Assembly (NCBI RefSeq): GCF_000266885.1
Contig: NC_018020.1
Span: 2,976,001-3,040,000 of the forward strand
DNA: 64,000 bases
Source of the DNA: Turneriella parva DSM 21527
Lineage (GTDB): Bacteria > Spirochaetota > Leptospiria > Turneriellales > Turneriellaceae
Direction of reading: 5' to 3'
Shown one piece after another: positions 1,344-8,441 of this stretch (position 1 is the stretch's first letter; each line of letters begins with the position of its first letter). Under the pieces are notes generated by a model, which saw only the letters and a program-made list of their open reading frames with translations, was not told the origin of the DNA and searched no databases. The translations under genes were made by a program, and so were the position numbers.

Positions 1344-4300
1344 TTACCAGGCGGTGTTTGCCGCCGCAGGCGAAAGCGCGGCGGGGGCCGCTGCCGTGCT
1401 CGCCGTGTAGTTTTTCCATGCGGATTTACCCGCGTTACGAATCGTCCCGAGATCTGCGGCTGCGCGGCTGACGCCCCCCCCAGAGTTCGTGCACAGGTAC
1501 GCGGTATTTTCTGCCGTTGTGCTGTCGGCGGCAACACATGCCCCCGCGAGCTGTATCGTTCGGTCGTTTAATCCGAATATCGGCCTCTCGCTGATCGGCC
1601 AGAAAGACTGCAGGTTATAATAGAAATGCGACAGCGGCCCCTGCACCATGCCTTTGGTGAGCGTGCCATCGCGATTGGTGTAGACCAGAGTGTCTTGTAT
1701 GCCCTTGTAAGCAAGATTGCATTCAGCGCGCGTCGTGTCGACAGTGTCATTTTCCCCTGTTGCGCAATACGTCAAAATGAACGTGCCATCGGTTGCATCA
1801 AAACCCGTCGTGTCGCGCAGCTGAATCGCGAGCGGGTAGGCGAGCGTGCCGCTGGTGCGATCGCCCTGCACGAACGAACCCTGCGCAATACCGATCGCCA
1901 CGATTGAACCCGTCGTTGCATAGATATCGCCGAGTTCGTATACGAGTCTCAGATCTTCGTCGTTATAGTAATACAGTTTTAATCCGCGCAGCGAGCCGTT
2001 ACTTGTGGCCTTGACCTCAACCCAATCTTTGTCGCCAAACGGCGCAGCAGTCTGCGTGCCGGTGACGCGCACTTCGTTAATTATCGCCGTCGCTAATGAG
2101 GATGTATAGCCGTTCAGGTGCAGTTCGCCCGATGTTGTGACACCTGTCACGTCGTTGCTACCCAAGCCGTCGCTGGTGGTGCGGTTCGTAAAACTAGTGC
2201 CGCCATTGGTTGAAACCGCAAGGCCAGCGGCAGTGGCTGCTAAAATTGTATCGCCGACAGAAGAGACGCTTCGAACATTATTACTCGCTAATCCATTTGC
2301 AGTTGACCGATTTGTGAAAGTGGTTCCCCCATCGGTTGATATTGAAATGCCACCTGTGGTTGCAGCCAAGACAAGATTTCCAGAGACATGCACGTTCTGA
2401 ACATCGTTGCTACCCAATCCGCTTGCGGTTGTGCGGTTTGAAAAGCTAGTGCCACCATCTATCGAAACGCCGAGGCCAGCAGCAGTGGCCGCAAAAAACC
2501 GATTGCCGGAAAAGGCGATGCTTCGCACATCATTGCTGCCAAGACCGTTTGCAGTAGTTTGATTAATAAACGATGAACCGTAGTTTGTGGAGATTCCAAG
2601 ACCATTGGCGGTAGCGACAAAGACCTGACTGCCGTATGTGCGCACTGCGCGAATATCGTTTGAACCAAAACCAGACGTGGTTGTGCTCAATGCATAGGTT
2701 GCGCCCGCGTTAGAAGAAATGCTCAGGCCGGCATCGGTCGCAACATAATAATAATTACCCCATGCATCGGCCATGCGAACATTATTACTGCTCAACCGAC
2801 CAGCACCGGCAGTCAGGTTGCTGAAGGTTAAAGTTCCGTTGACGGAGATGCCAAGTCCGCTGGCAGTCGCAGCAAAGACTGTGCTGTTTAAATCTGTGTC
2901 TGTTGCGCCCACGCGGTTTATTGAAACAATTGTATTGGCGCCAAGACCATTTGCTGTGGTTCGGTTTGTGAACGACGTGCCACCATCCAAGGACGTAGAA
3001 ACGCCGCCCGCTGTCGCGACGGCCATGATTAGTCCCACGCGTCTGCCGGCAGAATCGAGGCAGGTTGCATTTGCCCCGATGCTGTAGCGGCAAGTGGGGG
3101 AGACCATTGCCGCACTTGCCAAGGTTAAAATGACTTCTGAACTATTAGCTCCGGCTGAATGGCTCGAAATACCTGGTGTTGGGCACAGGCTGCTGGGGTC
3201 TTCAGTTTCTCGAATGGTTATTGCCCCCGTGCTGAGACAATTATTGGGGCCAGCAGCGCCCGAAACATTTCCGTCAAACGTCACGCGAATCTGGCTCGTT
3301 GAAATGGCCTGCACCTTCTTGATCTGTGGGTTCGCTTCGGCCGTATAGATGTAACCGGCAGACGAAAATGTCTGAGCAGATTTCGAAAGGCAGCCGTCGG
3401 GTGGCGCGCTCGCGCTGTAATCTTGTCTGCTCGAGCAGGTATATGGCTGCGCAGCGGGGTGTGTGAACCATGCCGATTGCAGCCGCCCAGACTGCTGTGT
3501 GGTGAAACGCTGCGTGCCGCTGTTATATCCCCGCCTCTCCATTGAATAGGTTGAGAAGGTGCCACCTGTCGGGTAATCGACAATTGCCCCCGCTGGCGCC
3601 TTTTCGCCGTCGCCGGCCTCGTCTATGAGGTTCATCGCCTTGTCGTAGAGCCTGATCTTGAAACTCGCGTCCGAAATCTTGAAGTTCTTTGTGCCCGAAA
3701 ATTTAAAGTGTTCGGTTGAAAGCGAACCGCCGGTGGAGCTGTTGATTTCTGCGCCTTGGTCATTATAGGTAATTACTTCATCAGCGCCAGTCTCTGCAAA
3801 GGCAGAAGGTTTCTTATTGTAAAAGAGGCGAACCTGACCCGCACAGATGATGTTCGGCAACGCGGTCGTATAACCCGCAACCCCACACGACTCCAAATTT
3901 TCATAGTACCAGTTATGGCTGTCGGGCACCGGGTATAGGTTACGTTTGTCGTTCGTACCCCACTGTATCGCCCAATGCGAGAGGTCGATCGGGTTGTTGG
4001 TGTTGTTGAAGATTTCTATGAAGTCGTCGCCGCGGTCGACCGAACTGCCGTCTGAAGAACCTGCCCAGCCAACCTCTGAAATAATGACATCACCTGCTGC
4101 CGCAGTATGACCCCGCAGGCGAACCCGAAGCGCCATGTCGTTCGCGATACCCCATGCGCCCTTAAACTGTTCGTAGATGGTATTCACGACGCGCGCCTGG
4201 TTTACGATGATAACATTTTCGTCGTTGTTGTTGATTGCATTATTCGACCAGTTGAAAGATCCGGTTGCCATGCGCGCATTGGGTGTACCGGCATCGACGA

Positions 4301-5270
4301 GCACCGTTTTGCAGTGCATCTTGCCGCCGTGGGCAGGGTTGTTCTTGATCGAGGTGTTCTCGTTGCCGTCCCATCTTATGAAAGGGCCGGTTGCCTGCAG
4401 GGTACCGCTGTTGTTAAAGCCTGCCGAATATATTTTCGGCGCTTCTTCTGAAACGCCCGAGACGAATGTCGAATCGTGAATGCCGTAAACGGGAATTCCC
4501 CTCTGCCGCGCCATCTTGATCATCGCGGCATTCAGTTCGTCGTGCGTGTGCGCAAAGATCATGTAGTGAATGCTGGTTGTCGCCGATTCGACCAGCGCAA
4601 TTATCCGGTCCATCGCTTCGTCACCCTGATAGGGTGAAAAATAGACTTCGAGCGGCGAGTTATTCAGAATAATCGTTGTGGATGCGGCGCGCTGCCGCTT
4701 TTGTGAGGCGAAAAGCCCGTTGTGCATCTGCAAGAATTCATCTTTATAAAGTTTTACCAGGGCATCGTTCTGAATTATATACCAGTTGTTATTGTTGCGC
4801 ACCATGTCTGTCTCAGAAATATTGCCGGTACCCATGAAGACATATTTGTCGTCGACCACGGCGAATTTATTGTGCTGAATGCCGTTTGCATTACCTAGCG
4901 TCATGTTGATGTTGCTGTGGTACATCGTCTGGTAGCCACTCGTGTAGAACTCGTCGATGTCGCCCACAACTCGCACGTCGATGTTGCGCTGAAACGCGCG
5001 CAAGACGGCCTGAACCACCGACGTTTTGTTGAAGTTGTAAACCGAGAAGTACATATAGCGCTCGGCGCCGTCGATCAGCCGCACGAGCTCGTCATCGACC
5101 TTGCGGTCGATCATGGTGTCCTGGTCTTTGCCAGGTTCAGAATAAAAGACTGAAAAGCGTTCACGGCCGTCGCCGAGGCCCGGGTCGCCAAAACCGAAAT
5201 TCGCGGAGCAATAGTTCAGCGTGAACAGGGGTAGAAGCACCCAGATCGCATGTGAGGTAAAACGCCGCAC
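1344..5270 (-). CDS. Large surface protein: phospholipase D domain, two lamin-tail-like domains, seven-repeat beta-propeller
   Basis: This 1308-residue protein begins with a hydrophobic export signal (residues about 8-20) followed by Cys21; Tyr at -1 makes it a poor lipobox. Residues 45-380 form a phospholipase D-type catalytic unit with two HKD motifs: H133/K135/D140, then GTGN, and H319/K321/D326, then ATGSFNWS. Residues about 393-560 look like a lamin-tail domain (VIISEVGWAGS...DFIEIFN). Residues 745-1041 hold seven repeats, mostly of 42 residues, of the type AATAAGLGVS-DGGTSF-NRTTA-GLGSNDV, expected to close into a seven-bladed propeller. A second lamin-tail-like segment starts near 1062 (AIINEVRVTG). 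The start codon is GTG with no clear ribosome site. Family knowledge: HKD enzymes cleave phosphodiesters (lipids or DNA). Substrate is unknown; a secreted nuclease or lipase is equally possible. Confidence 0.82.
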   Translation of the reverse strand: MRRFTSHAIWVLLPLFTLNYCSANFGFGDPGLGDGRERFSVFYSEPGKDQDTMIDRKVDDELVRLIDGAERYMYFSVYNFNKTSVVQAVLRAFQRNIDVRVVGDIDEFYTSGYQTMYHSNINMTLGNANGIQHNKFAVVDDKYVFMGTGNISETDMVRNNNNWYIIQNDALVKLYKDEFLQMHNGLFASQKRQRAASTTIILNNSPLEVYFSPYQGDEAMDRIIALVESATTSIHYMIFAHTHDELNAAMIKMARQRGIPVYGIHDSTFVSGVSEEAPKIYSAGFNNSGTLQATGPFIRWDGNENTSIKNNPAHGGKMHCKTVLVDAGTPNARMATGSFNWSNNAINNNDENVIIVNQARVVNTIYEQFKGAWGIANDMALRVRLRGHTAAAGDVIISEVGWAGSSDGSSVDRGDDFIEIFNNTNNPIDLSHWAIQWGTNDKRNLYPVPDSHNWYYENLESCGVAGYTTALPNIICAGQVRLFYNKKPSAFAETGADEVITYNDQGAEINSSTGGSLSTEHFKFSGTKNFKISDASFKIRLYDKAMNLIDEAGDGEKAPAGAIVDYPTGGTFSTYSMERRGYNSGTQRFTTQQSGRLQSAWFTHPAAQPYTCSSRQDYSASAPPDGCLSKSAQTFSSAGYIYTAEANPQIKKVQAISTSQIRVTFDGNVSGAAGPNNCLSTGAITIRETEDPSSLCPTPGISSHSAGANSSEVILTLASAAMVSPTCRYSIGANATCLDSAGRRVGLIMAVATAGGVSTSLDGGTSFTNRTTANGLGANTIVSINRVGATDTDLNSTVFAATASGLGISVNGTLTFSNLTAGAGRLSSNNVRMADAWGNYYYVATDAGLSISSNAGATYALSTTTSGFGSNDIRAVRTYGSQVFVATANGLGISTNYGSSFINQTTANGLGSNDVRSIAFSGNRFFAATAAGLGVSIDGGTSFSNRTTASGLGSNDVQNVHVSGNLVLAATTGGISISTDGGTTFTNRSTANGLASNNVRSVSSVGDTILAATAAGLAVSTNGGTSFTNRTTSDGLGSNDVTGVTTSGELHLNGYTSSLATAIINEVRVTGTQTAAPFGDKDWVEVKATSNGSLRGLKLYYYNDEDLRLVYELGDIYATTGSIVAIGIAQGSFVQGDRTSGTLAYPLAIQLRDTTGFDATDGTFILTYCATGENDTVDTTRAECNLAYKGIQDTLVYTNRDGTLTKGMVQGPLSHFYYNLQSFWPISERPIFGLNDRTIQLAGACVAADSTTAENTAYLCTNSGGGVSRAAADLGTIRNAGKSAWKNYTASTAAAPAALSPAAANTAW
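2150..3038 (-). repeat. Seven tandem propeller repeats inside the PLD protein gene
   Basis: Seven consecutive in-frame repeats, most of 126 bases (42 codons), encode residues about 745-1041 of the PLD surface protein. Each carries the core GLG-S-DGGTSF-NRTT. The second repeat is longer (about 50 codons). Repeats 4 to 7 are most alike at DNA level, which suggests recent internal duplication. The repeats resemble BNR/YCF48-like propeller blades. Confidence 0.8.
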
Positions 5271-5315: not shown

Positions 5316-7649
5316 TCAAACTAACCTGGTAACATGATTCGGGCGTATTTCTTCGAGCCGTGAAATACCCAGAACGCGCATCGTCTGCCTCAGCTCTGCG
5401 ATATAGTGGTTCATGAGGCTCTGCACTCCGACGCGCCCTAGACCTACCGCCATGATTGCGATGGGCCTGCCGATGAGCACCGCGTCAGCACCGAGCGCGA
5501 GCATACGAAATATATCGGCGCCTGAACGAATGCCGCCATCGGCGAATACCTGCATCTGGCCTGCATGTTGTTTCACCCATGCGCTGATAGCTGGCAGCAC
5601 GCGTGCCGTACCGGGCATGCCGTCAAGCACGCGTCCGCCATGGTTGCTCACGACAATCGCGGCAGCACCGGCTGCGGCGGCCGCTTCGGCGTCTGCAATC
5701 GACATGACACCCTTGATAACTGCCGGCAGTTTCGTCGCCCGCACAAGTTCTTTAAGTTCAGCCGGTGTCTTGCGCGACGTTGCGGCATTCTTGAGCACCA
5801 TGGTCTTGAATGAAACGCCGTCGATGTCGATTCCCCACGCAACCGCGCCGGCGCGTTCGGCTTCGGCGATGCGACGCAGCAGTTCTTGTTGATCGGTGCG
5901 CGGCTTAAAAACCGGAAACCCGCGTCCGATAAGTTCGATCGCGTGCAGACCGACACGGTATTTGTCGGCAGAGGCGCCGTCGCCAAAGGTGGGCATGAGG
6001 CCGAGCGACGCCATCGCGCTGCCCGTTTCGATCGCGTAGTCGAACTCAGTAATCGAGCCGCCCATATTCGTGACGCTGCCGGTGATCGGTGCCGACAAAA
6101 TGGGTGCCGCGAGAGTGAGCGCGTCACGCCCGAAAAGTTTCAGCGTCGTATCGACCTCTGCGACATTCGAACTTGAGGATAAATAACCTGGTACAATTTT
6201 GTACTCAGCGAGTGCCTGCACGTTATCCCGAAACGTGTTCATTTCGCCGCGCGCGCCCATGCCGGGCACGCCCGAAGCGCAATAGCCGCCATCGCAGACT
6301 TTGCAGACCCAACAGAAGCTGTTGTTAAAATTCTCGCGTGCAATCTTGGCCATCGCGCGCGCGTTGTAATCGGGCGTTTTGCTCGCGAATGCGAGTTTCG
6401 GTTTGATTTCAGCAAACAACGCTTCGGCTGCGGCGAGCGTTTGCGAGCGTATCACCGTATGGTAAACCTTGCCGATATTGTTCTGCAAATTCTGCACGCT
6501 ATCGCCGCTGCGGTAATTGCCGTGAACCAGAATTAATCCGCGCTCTTTGTATTCTGCCTGCAGCGCATCGAGTTCGGCACGTGATTTGATGCCAGCCAGC
6601 TCACCGGGTTCGGCGTAGAGCGAGCGTTCAATCGCAATTGCCTGCGTTGCAGTGTCTTCGCCCGCAGGCGCCATGATGCTACGGTCAAACATCATAAGCC
6701 TTATGAACAGCTGCATCAGGTTCTTGCCGTGCGCTGCGGGGTAGGTGTGCGTGCTCATGAAACCACCCGACAGTCTGCCGGCGATTTCTCCGATTACAAT
6801 TTCGCCGGACGCCGTGAGCCGCAGGTCGCCCTTCAGGGCGCCGTGGTATGCTTTTCCCGACAGTGCCGAGAGAGAGTCTGCGTAGCGCTGCAGTGTTTCA
6901 CGAATGGTATCGAAATTCTGGGGCTTTATATCTGCAGGCAAAGTGTGGCCATTCTCGATAAAGAAGTGCGCGTCTTTGATCTCTATCAGGCGATCGGCTA
7001 CGCCCGTCAGCATCACACGACCTTCGAAGCAGAGCGCATCGACTGAAATTTCGCGCGCGGGTACAAAATGCTCGACGATGACCTGTGCATTCTGCGCATT
7101 GGGCCCGGCGGCGGCCGCTGAAAACTCGAATGCGTAGGCCAGGTCGTCGGCGTTCTTTATGAGCATCACGCCGCGCGCACCCATATTCTGCACGGGCTTG
7201 ATCACAAACCCATCGGCGCAGTGATTCGCCCGCATAAAGGCGGCGAGTTCGTCTTTCGATTCAGAAAAGGTATAGGGCGGGTGCAGATGTCCATGTGCCT
7301 TGCAGAAATCGCGCATCTTACCCTTGTGTGTCAGAACTTCACCTTGCTTTGTCGTCAGCCCGGGAAGTTGCAGCGCGTCGTTGACGCAGCCGACGATGTG
7401 GGAAAAATCGGTTGCGACGGTTGTTACGAACGCCAGCTGCCCGGCGAATGGTTTGAGCGCTGCGATGACCGCATCGGCATCGGCGATCTGCACGTGCAGA
7501 AATTCAGAGGCCGTTTCGCGACCCACCGCAGCATGGTTCTGGTCGAGCGCCAGAACCCTGAAGCCCAGCTCGCGCGCGGCCTGCATGAACGGAATCTGCA
7601 AAAGCCCGGCACCGAGCAGGACGATAGTGTTTTTTTCGTTGCCCGCCAT
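5316..7649 (-). CDS. Fusion protein: ATP-grasp ligase domain plus FMN-dependent alpha-hydroxy-acid dehydrogenase
   Basis: A 777-residue protein with two enzyme halves. Residues 1-420 are ATP-grasp like: a nucleotide-binding-type start (IVLLGAGLLQIPF), Lys151 in GFVIKPVQNMGARG, Glu193 in VEHFVPAREISVDA, and the metal-binding segment GEIVIGEIAGRLSGG (about 282-296). Residues 441-777 are an FMN-dependent hydroxy-acid dehydrogenase barrel: Lys646 in VIKGVMS, the catalytic SNHGGRVLDG at 668-677 (His670, Arg673), and the FMN phosphate loop VFADGGIRSGADI. Between them sits a four-cysteine cluster C446-x2-C449-x2-C452-x4-C457 followed by GVPGMGARGE. That cluster also occurs at the N-terminus of stand-alone members of this dehydrogenase subfamily, as I recall. 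The start is ATG. Substrates are unknown; the fusion suggests an alpha-hydroxy or alpha-keto acid that is also ligated to an amine or carboxylate. Confidence 0.85.
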   Translation of the reverse strand: MAGNEKNTIVLLGAGLLQIPFMQAARELGFRVLALDQNHAAVGRETASEFLHVQIADADAVIAALKPFAGQLAFVTTVATDFSHIVGCVNDALQLPGLTTKQGEVLTHKGKMRDFCKAHGHLHPPYTFSESKDELAAFMRANHCADGFVIKPVQNMGARGVMLIKNADDLAYAFEFSAAAAGPNAQNAQVIVEHFVPAREISVDALCFEGRVMLTGVADRLIEIKDAHFFIENGHTLPADIKPQNFDTIRETLQRYADSLSALSGKAYHGALKGDLRLTASGEIVIGEIAGRLSGGFMSTHTYPAAHGKNLMQLFIRLMMFDRSIMAPAGEDTATQAIAIERSLYAEPGELAGIKSRAELDALQAEYKERGLILVHGNYRSGDSVQNLQNNIGKVYHTVIRSQTLAAAEALFAEIKPKLAFASKTPDYNARAMAKIARENFNNSFCWVCKVCDGGYCASGVPGMGARGEMNTFRDNVQALAEYKIVPGYLSSSSNVAEVDTTLKLFGRDALTLAAPILSAPITGSVTNMGGSITEFDYAIETGSAMASLGLMPTFGDGASADKYRVGLHAIELIGRGFPVFKPRTDQQELLRRIAEAERAGAVAWGIDIDGVSFKTMVLKNAATSRKTPAELKELVRATKLPAVIKGVMSIADAEAAAAAGAAAIVVSNHGGRVLDGMPGTARVLPAISAWVKQHAGQMQVFADGGIRSGADIFRMLALGADAVLIGRPIAIMAVGLGRVGVQSLMNHYIAELRQTMRVLGISRLEEIRPNHVTRLV

Positions 7650-7715: not shown

Positions 7716-8441
7716 TTAACTGTGTTTGTATTCGGGCTGAAAAGGGGCATTCAGTACCGAATAGCCGGGCAGATTTTTTGCCTCAGTCGCGACCAGCGAA
7801 GCGCCGAAATGGCGTGCGAGCCCCAGGCGCAGGTTGTGCATCAGCTTGGCCCGGCTATAGCAGGGCAGCACATTGGTCATAAATTCACGATGCGGGCGGC
7901 CCGCCCGGTACGCAGGTTGTTTGGGTGGCATTTTCAGATACCATGGAATTTGCCGCAATGCCTGTTTGGCATAGACGAGTGTGCCGTGCAGCATTAGCCA
8001 GCCGCGTTTGCGGCATTGCGCATTACCCGAGAACTTGCGCACATCGCCCCGAACACCGTAACCCAGATCAGAGTAGCCGCGGACGGCGACGTTTTTGCCG
8101 ATTGCTGCCGCGATGGCGGTGAGCAGTTGGTCGTAAGACAGCGAGACGTTGAAGAGTTCGGGGTAGTCGTCGAGCGACAAAAAGAGCGCATAGTTAAGGT
8201 TGCCCGCAGTGTGCAAGACAGTGCCACCACCTGAGATGCGGCGGTAGACATTGGGTACCCGCTTGTGCAGGCAAACCTCTTCATCGAGGGTCAGGGATTT
8301 GCCGAGCACGATTGCCTCTCTGTTCTCATAAAAAACCAGATAGGCGGTGCTGGCCGGTTTCACAGCCGCAAAAAAACTTTCTTCAAACGCGAGGTTAACC
8401 GCACAGCACTGCGACGGCAAAAAGGCAGTGATCAGCTTCAC
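7716..8441 (-). CDS. lplA: Lipoate-protein ligase A family protein
   Basis: A 241-residue protein of the biotin/lipoate ligase fold. Diagnostic motifs are RRISGGGTVLHTAGNLNYAL (about residues 67-86), where lipoyl-AMP binds, and KFSGNAQCRKRGWLMLHGTL (about 136-155) with the family Lys. It should attach lipoate (or octanoate) to E2 and GcvH proteins in the cytoplasm. It is shorter than E. coli LplA and lacks the long C-terminal accessory domain, so an octanoyl/lipoyl transferase role is also possible. The GTG start overlaps the TGA stop of the upstream channel gene as GTGA, implying translational coupling. Confidence 0.85.
   Translation of the reverse strand: MKLITAFLPSQCCAVNLAFEESFFAAVKPASTAYLVFYENREAIVLGKSLTLDEEVCLHKRVPNVYRRISGGGTVLHTAGNLNYALFLSLDDYPELFNVSLSYDQLLTAIAAAIGKNVAVRGYSDLGYGVRGDVRKFSGNAQCRKRGWLMLHGTLVYAKQALRQIPWYLKMPPKQPAYRAGRPHREFMTNVLPCYSRAKLMHNLRLGLARHFGASLVATEAKNLPGYSVLNAPFQPEYKHS

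Follow-up and report, generated by a model that had tools for sequence, protein, structure and literature searches.

One gene of the spirochaete Turneriella parva DSM 21527 encodes an ATP-grasp ligase fused to an FMN-dependent 2-hydroxy-acid dehydrogenase, and on balance we favor the view that this fusion is a conserved spirochaete enzyme in the synthesis of the glycan, a modified nonulosonic acid of the pseudaminic type, that decorates FlaB, the flagellin of the periplasmic flagella. The link between the protein and the flagellin nonulosonic-acid pathway is well supported by gene context and distribution; we infer the exact chemistry of the fusion from the structure of the T. denticola glycan. 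An earlier note, made from the DNA letters alone, had recognized the fusion; it left out the phylum-wide spread of the protein and its tie to flagella, which emerge from gene order and distribution.

The fusion is encoded in one uninterrupted reading frame

Within the 64,000-nucleotide stretch of the T. parva genome analyzed here (the window), the fusion gene spans positions 5316..7649 on the minus strand, with its ATG at 7649 and its stop codon ending at 5316. The gene is present in single copy in the genome (4,409,302 bases; main contig 4,384,015), and its 777-residue frame is uninterrupted, as the earlier note had claimed. Residues 1-425 (6375..7649, minus strand) make up an ATP-grasp ligase half of the L-amino-acid-ligase type, assigned by profile and conserved residues, and residues 426-777 (5319..6374, minus strand) make up an FMN 2-hydroxy-acid dehydrogenase half, assigned by the FMN_dh profile. 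K151, E193, GEIAGRLSGG, SNHGGRVLDG and the cysteines C446, C449, C452 and C457 all lie where the note had placed them, and the domain search that it had suggested finds both families above their curated Pfam cut-offs. ATP-grasp_4 matches residues 148-300 (E=1.1e-11, 45 bits against a cut-off of 27), and FMN_dh (PF01070) matches with E=1.1e-54 and 186.2 bits against a cut-off of 24.9, its best stretch covering residues 619-774 and a second stretch adding to it. By sequence and alignment, two catalytic residues typical of FMN_dh proteins, His670 and Arg673, lie in the SNHGGR motif at residues 668-673 (5631..5648, minus strand).

The fusion is conserved across Spirochaetota

In the class to which T. 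parva belongs, 44 of 48 genomes contain a match to the fusion, 40 of them full length and four partial; the full-length matches cover about residues 5-776 of the query at 36-65% identity and lack internal stops. Across Spirochaetota, 308 of 393 genomes match, many at full length and in other families too. Because full-length matches occur in independent genomes of the class and in many other families, the fusion is not an assembly artefact, and its conservation across Spirochaetota likewise rules out a local oddity. The idea of a true fusion of two usually separate families is borne out by the Pfam assignments and the full-length homologues phylum-wide; no frameshift or stop divides the halves, and the homologues in independent genomes are free of internal stops. 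The literature that we searched yielded no publication on such a fusion.

We counted residue conservation over 63 distinct aligned fusions, including the window protein. The ATP-grasp catalytic columns are kept in 62-63 of the 63, and the conserved residues of the ligase half comprise K109, K151, E193, E200, D275, E288 and R292. Among the catalytic residues of the FMN half, K646 is kept in all 63 fusions, R673 in 61 and H670 in 58; all four cysteines are kept in 61. Two Brachyspira-type fusions (L060, 7842-9992, and L061, 8119-10290, both minus strand) have a degenerate flavin half that lacks the cysteines and the flavin-site and catalytic residues, with the ligase half intact. That these members have lost the flavin site and kept the ligase counts against our preferred explanation. 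The reverse case is a member of family f21 (L145, 5399-7561, plus strand), in which the ATP-grasp catalytic residues are changed and the four-cysteine flavin half is intact; its genome also has a separate, intact ligase (L131). These opposite patterns of decay indicate that the two halves can be uncoupled. In a further genome (G057; L054, 8157-9359, plus strand), a TGA follows the ligase half and the match runs on into the cysteine region; the gene may have split recently, its tail may have decayed, or the sequence may contain an error.

The flavin half belongs to a four-cysteine subfamily

Judged by its sequence, the flavin half belongs to a four-cysteine subfamily of FMN_dh proteins that also occur as stand-alone enzymes in clostridia and treponemes. 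The motif C446-x2-C449-x2-C452-x4-C457 (6279..6314, minus strand) lies at the N-terminus of this half and is conserved in fusions and stand-alone homologues alike, most of the stand-alone homologues that we fetched having CxxCxxCx4C near the N-terminus of the flavin domain. The earlier note had named the motif as the N-terminal mark of one FMN dehydrogenase subfamily, and the stand-alone clostridial and treponemal members agree with this. It had also taken the cysteines for a special hinge joining the halves; since stand-alone homologues carry the motif, the cysteines belong to the flavoenzyme half, and a bespoke hinge is ruled out. The stand-alone proteins, annotated as 'alpha-hydroxy-acid oxidizing protein', share the CxxCxxCxGxxC and SNHGGR motifs with the fusion, but they are unfused, and in the tree most of them cluster together with support, separately from the fusions.

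By profile, the flavin half falls into the same family (PF01070) as lactate oxidase, glycolate oxidase and flavocytochrome b2, and it shares with these FMN 2-hydroxy-acid dehydrogenases the catalytic Lys, His and Arg. It differs from them in the ligase attached to it and in having the four-cysteine motif instead of the N-terminal lid: in a hand alignment, the cysteine segment takes the position of the lid that, in lactate and glycolate oxidases, contains an active-site tyrosine. The active-site columns appear to differ as well, the equivalents of glycolate oxidase Tyr24, Tyr129 and Arg164 (columns 456, 582-584 and 615) not being Tyr, Tyr and Arg in this hand alignment of a divergent region. 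A structure predicted from a four-row alignment reached a mean pLDDT of 66.6 and is unreliable in the cysteine segment (pLDDT about 30).

The earlier note had inferred that one polypeptide oxidizes an alpha-hydroxy acid and ligates it or its product, perhaps with channeling. The retention of the catalytic Lys646, His670 and Arg673 would suit an enzyme of general metabolism, unrelated to flagella, that acts on lactate or a similarly small 2-hydroxy acid, oxidizing it and ligating either the acid or its oxo product. We regard this as very unlikely, given that the substrate-binding tyrosine and arginine columns appear not to be kept (again by hand alignment of a divergent region), that the distribution of the protein tracks flagellin, as described below, and that both halves are retained in a treponeme genome of 1.14 Mb.

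The ligase half resembles L-amino-acid ligases

The ligase half is closest to the L-amino-acid ligases, matching the L-amino-acid ligase 3vot by profile (E=5.9e-38) and also by fold. It has in common with BL00235 (3vot), RizA (4wd3) and BacD the ATP-grasp fold and the catalytic residues, but gene context suggests an amino sugar as its acceptor, not an amino acid. In addition, the LAL_C2 domain (PF18603) was detected in four relatives of the window protein (L052, L056, L060 and L062), whereas the Pfam search did not detect it in the window protein itself. The top Foldseek matches were to pyruvate carboxylase, which combines an ATP-grasp domain with a barrel and superposes poorly; we did not accept these as homologous fusions. 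A second ATP-grasp gene, near a FlaB gene in the window genome (L005, L229), is PurT-like and unrelated.

In a ligase tree with distant Bacteroidota and Desulfovibrio homologues as the outgroup, the stand-alone ligases of Treponema-type spirochaetes fall among the fusion ligases. This nesting suggests that the Treponema-type ligases have lost the flavin half; they have a different extension at the C-terminus.

Ligase and flavoenzyme follow flagellin and its glycosylation sites

Flagellin was found in 351 of the 393 Spirochaetota genomes. Outside f38, a Borrelia-like family with genomes of about 0.9-1.9 Mb, a match to the ligase or flavoenzyme is present in 306 of 315 flagellated genomes, the nine misses being mostly incomplete drafts; within f38, none of the 36 genomes has a match. 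Matches are likewise absent from 40 of the 42 flagellin-less genomes, and an orthologous ligase from all 42, the two exceptions holding a stand-alone flavoenzyme (G359) and a pair of distant ATP-grasp genes (G386). The radical SAM/SPASM protein spiroSPASM shows the same pattern as the fusion and ligase, as does a methyltransferase in the 32 genomes tested; class-wide matches to this methyltransferase are weak and involve the methyltransferase domain only. The flagellin-less groups f45/g94 and f50/g158, which stand beside flagellated relatives, provide two cases of loss besides f49. Independent losses are few, and the counts are therefore not independent trials.

In T. denticola, FlaB carries a 450.2-Da glycan that is required for filament assembly (PMC9481697). 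The T. denticola glycosylation motifs, VEVSQL and DRIAS, are shared by Leptospira, with substitutions in Borrelia (PMC7431986). Among the sampled flagellins of genomes that carry the ligase or flavoenzyme, both serines are mostly kept, with small changes nearby (NRIAS, DRVAS); this does not hold, for example, for one of the flagellin copies in the window genome (DRIGT) or for the Brachyspira-type flagellins (VEINQL). In all five sampled f38 flagellins, E replaces the first serine and D the second. Thus, over a limited number of independent losses, the presence of the ligase or flavoenzyme follows both flagellin and the acceptor serines. In Leptospira, the flagellin glycan has been proposed to hold the sheath. 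Putative glycan densities have been described on L. biflexa FlaB1 (PMC13144727); the report of no detectable nonulosonic acid in L. biflexa (PMC3438082) counts against the favored role.

Homologues lie among nonulosonic-acid and flagellar genes

Fusion genes mostly lack neighbors conserved across families. Linkage to nonulosonic-acid or flagellar genes comes from stand-alone homologues and, through a methyltransferase, from two fusions, and not from the window locus: in the window genome, the fusion, spiroSPASM and the methyltransferase homologue are encoded at scattered sites, none of them in a flagellar or nonulosonic-acid cluster. In several families, we found the cluster spiroSPASM (TIGR04321)-Y-CTP_transf_3-PseG/methyltransferase-ligase-Amidase_3-Germane-FlaA. 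Its CTP_transf_3 gene is CMP-sugar synthetase-like, the PseG-like part is similar to PseG of C. jejuni (match to 3hbm, E=3.7e-7), and protein Y has no clear family, with a weak match to glycosyltransferase 2. In 16 genomes, the stand-alone ligase comes directly after a PseG-like/methyltransferase gene. In the treponeme with the 1.14-Mb genome (G097), it is the four-cysteine flavoenzyme that shares an operon with spiroSPASM, Y and the CTP/PseG-methyltransferase genes, with a HAD hydrolase between. With the ligase in the cluster elsewhere and the flavoenzyme in this operon, each half therefore occurs alone with the same partners. As for the two fusions, the methyltransferase gene adjoins the fusion in G049, where a polysaccharide pyruvyl transferase lies upstream, and stands in the same gene run in G056. 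Another genome with a fusion, G050, has the cluster minus the ligase gene, and a distant ligase homologue occurs in a pseudaminic-acid cluster of Solidesulfovibrio (pseB/pseC/pseF).

The same gene order bears on a rather unlikely alternative, a cell-wall or dipeptide enzyme. Its ATP-grasp half would produce or recycle a short peptide that peptidoglycan needs where the periplasmic flagella cross the wall, and the flavoenzyme would supply an altered amino or hydroxy acid. Such a role would agree with the fold and profile kinship to L-amino-acid ligases, with the Amidase_3 gene that follows the stand-alone ligase in many genomes and with the M23 peptidase gene that precedes the fusion at two loci (L092 and L098). 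However, the immediate upstream partners are PseG-like/methyltransferase and CMP-sugar synthetase-like genes rather than genes of cell-wall synthesis, and flagellin-less spirochaetes have walls and lack the ligase.

The presence of spiroSPASM also recalls mycofactocin, where the radical SAM/SPASM protein MftC is paired with the FMN enzyme MftD, much as a SPASM protein is paired here with an FMN_dh-family enzyme. One could picture a similar system here that yields a modified peptide or a cofactor derived from one, in which spiroSPASM acts as maturase and the flavoenzyme as an oxidase akin to MftD. Such a system would be consistent with the parallel distributions of fusion and spiroSPASM, with the operons that spiroSPASM shares with the separate halves and with a weak MftD match of the FMN half. 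We consider it quite improbable: the ligase and sugar genes stand here in place of a precursor peptide, and the PseG-like and CMP-sugar synthetase-like partners and FlaA point to a flagellin sugar. Identity of the flavin half with pre-mycofactocin synthase MftD (TIGR03966) was rejected, as its score of 91.5 falls below the cut-off of 470.85.

Three loci (L245, L246 and L247) show a tidy spiroSPASM-Y-CTP-PseG/MTase-ligase cluster, to which L246 and L247 add the amidase, Germane and FlaA genes; as a side reading, this cluster could mark the locus of a flagellar glycan pathway in spirochaetes. We also considered the co-transcribed flaA operon of T. denticola (TDE1716-1712) as a home of the ligase and rejected it, as the published primers correspond to the genes for FlaA, Germane, the amidase and two further proteins; the T. 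denticola ligase gene lies outside this operon.

A proposed route to the flagellin glycan

The nonulosonic acid of T. denticola reportedly bears a 2-methoxy-4,5,6-trihydroxyhexanoyl group at N7, and we found no account of how the acyl group of the flagellin glycan is made in the literature searched. Such a group would call for a methyltransferase, a flavoenzyme acting on 2-hydroxy acids and a ligase that forms amides, and this is the basis of our chemical assignment. In the favored flagellin-glycan role, the FMN half would convert a sugar-derived acid between its 2-hydroxy and 2-oxo states, the four cysteines beside the flavin may hold a metal or Fe-S site for electron transfer, and the partner methyltransferase would methylate a hydroxyl in either the acyl group or the sugar. 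The ATP-grasp half would activate a carboxylate as an acyl phosphate and from it form an amide bond to an amino group, either on the nonulosonic acid itself or on its precursor. The activated sugar would be finished by the PseG-like hydrolase and the CMP-sugar synthetase-like protein encoded in the cluster, ready for transfer to Ser/Thr residues of FlaB.

More tentatively, and with clearly less confidence than in the general role, we propose a phylum-wide and undescribed bifunctional enzyme that makes a 2-hydroxy(methoxy)-acid acyl group and also joins it to the flagellin nonulosonic acid: an Fe-S-assisted FMN domain would act with an ATP-grasp amide ligase that replaces the acetyl-CoA-dependent N-acyltransferase of the known pathways, alongside a radical SAM/SPASM partner. 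The PseB-C-H-G-I-F pathways for pseudaminic and legionaminic acid on flagellin have the PseG-like hydrolase and CMP-sugar synthetase-like genes in common with the spirochaete cluster. Relative to them, the spirochaete set adds the methyltransferase, the radical SAM/SPASM protein, the ATP-grasp ligase and the FMN enzyme, and the ATP-grasp enzyme would take the place of the acetyltransferase-type N-acylation step. If the favored role is correct, the ligase, the flavoenzyme and the partner genes of the spirochaete flagellin glycan can be named across the phylum, their absence from Borrelia-like and flagellum-less spirochaetes is explained, and the pathway is directly testable in L. biflexa or T. 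denticola.

Genes flanking the fusion

Directly upstream of the fusion gene in the window lies an LplA-like lipoate ligase gene (7716-8441, minus strand), which takes the same position in close relatives and adjoins the fusion repeatedly only within the window's class. At L071-type loci, the gene before the fusion encodes a longer LplA-like protein that also has a DUF309 domain. On the other side, positions 1344-5270 (minus strand) encode a protein of 1308 aa in which two PLD-like domains and a lamin-tail domain occur together with internal repeats of the GLGSNDVRSV...GTSFTNRTTA type.
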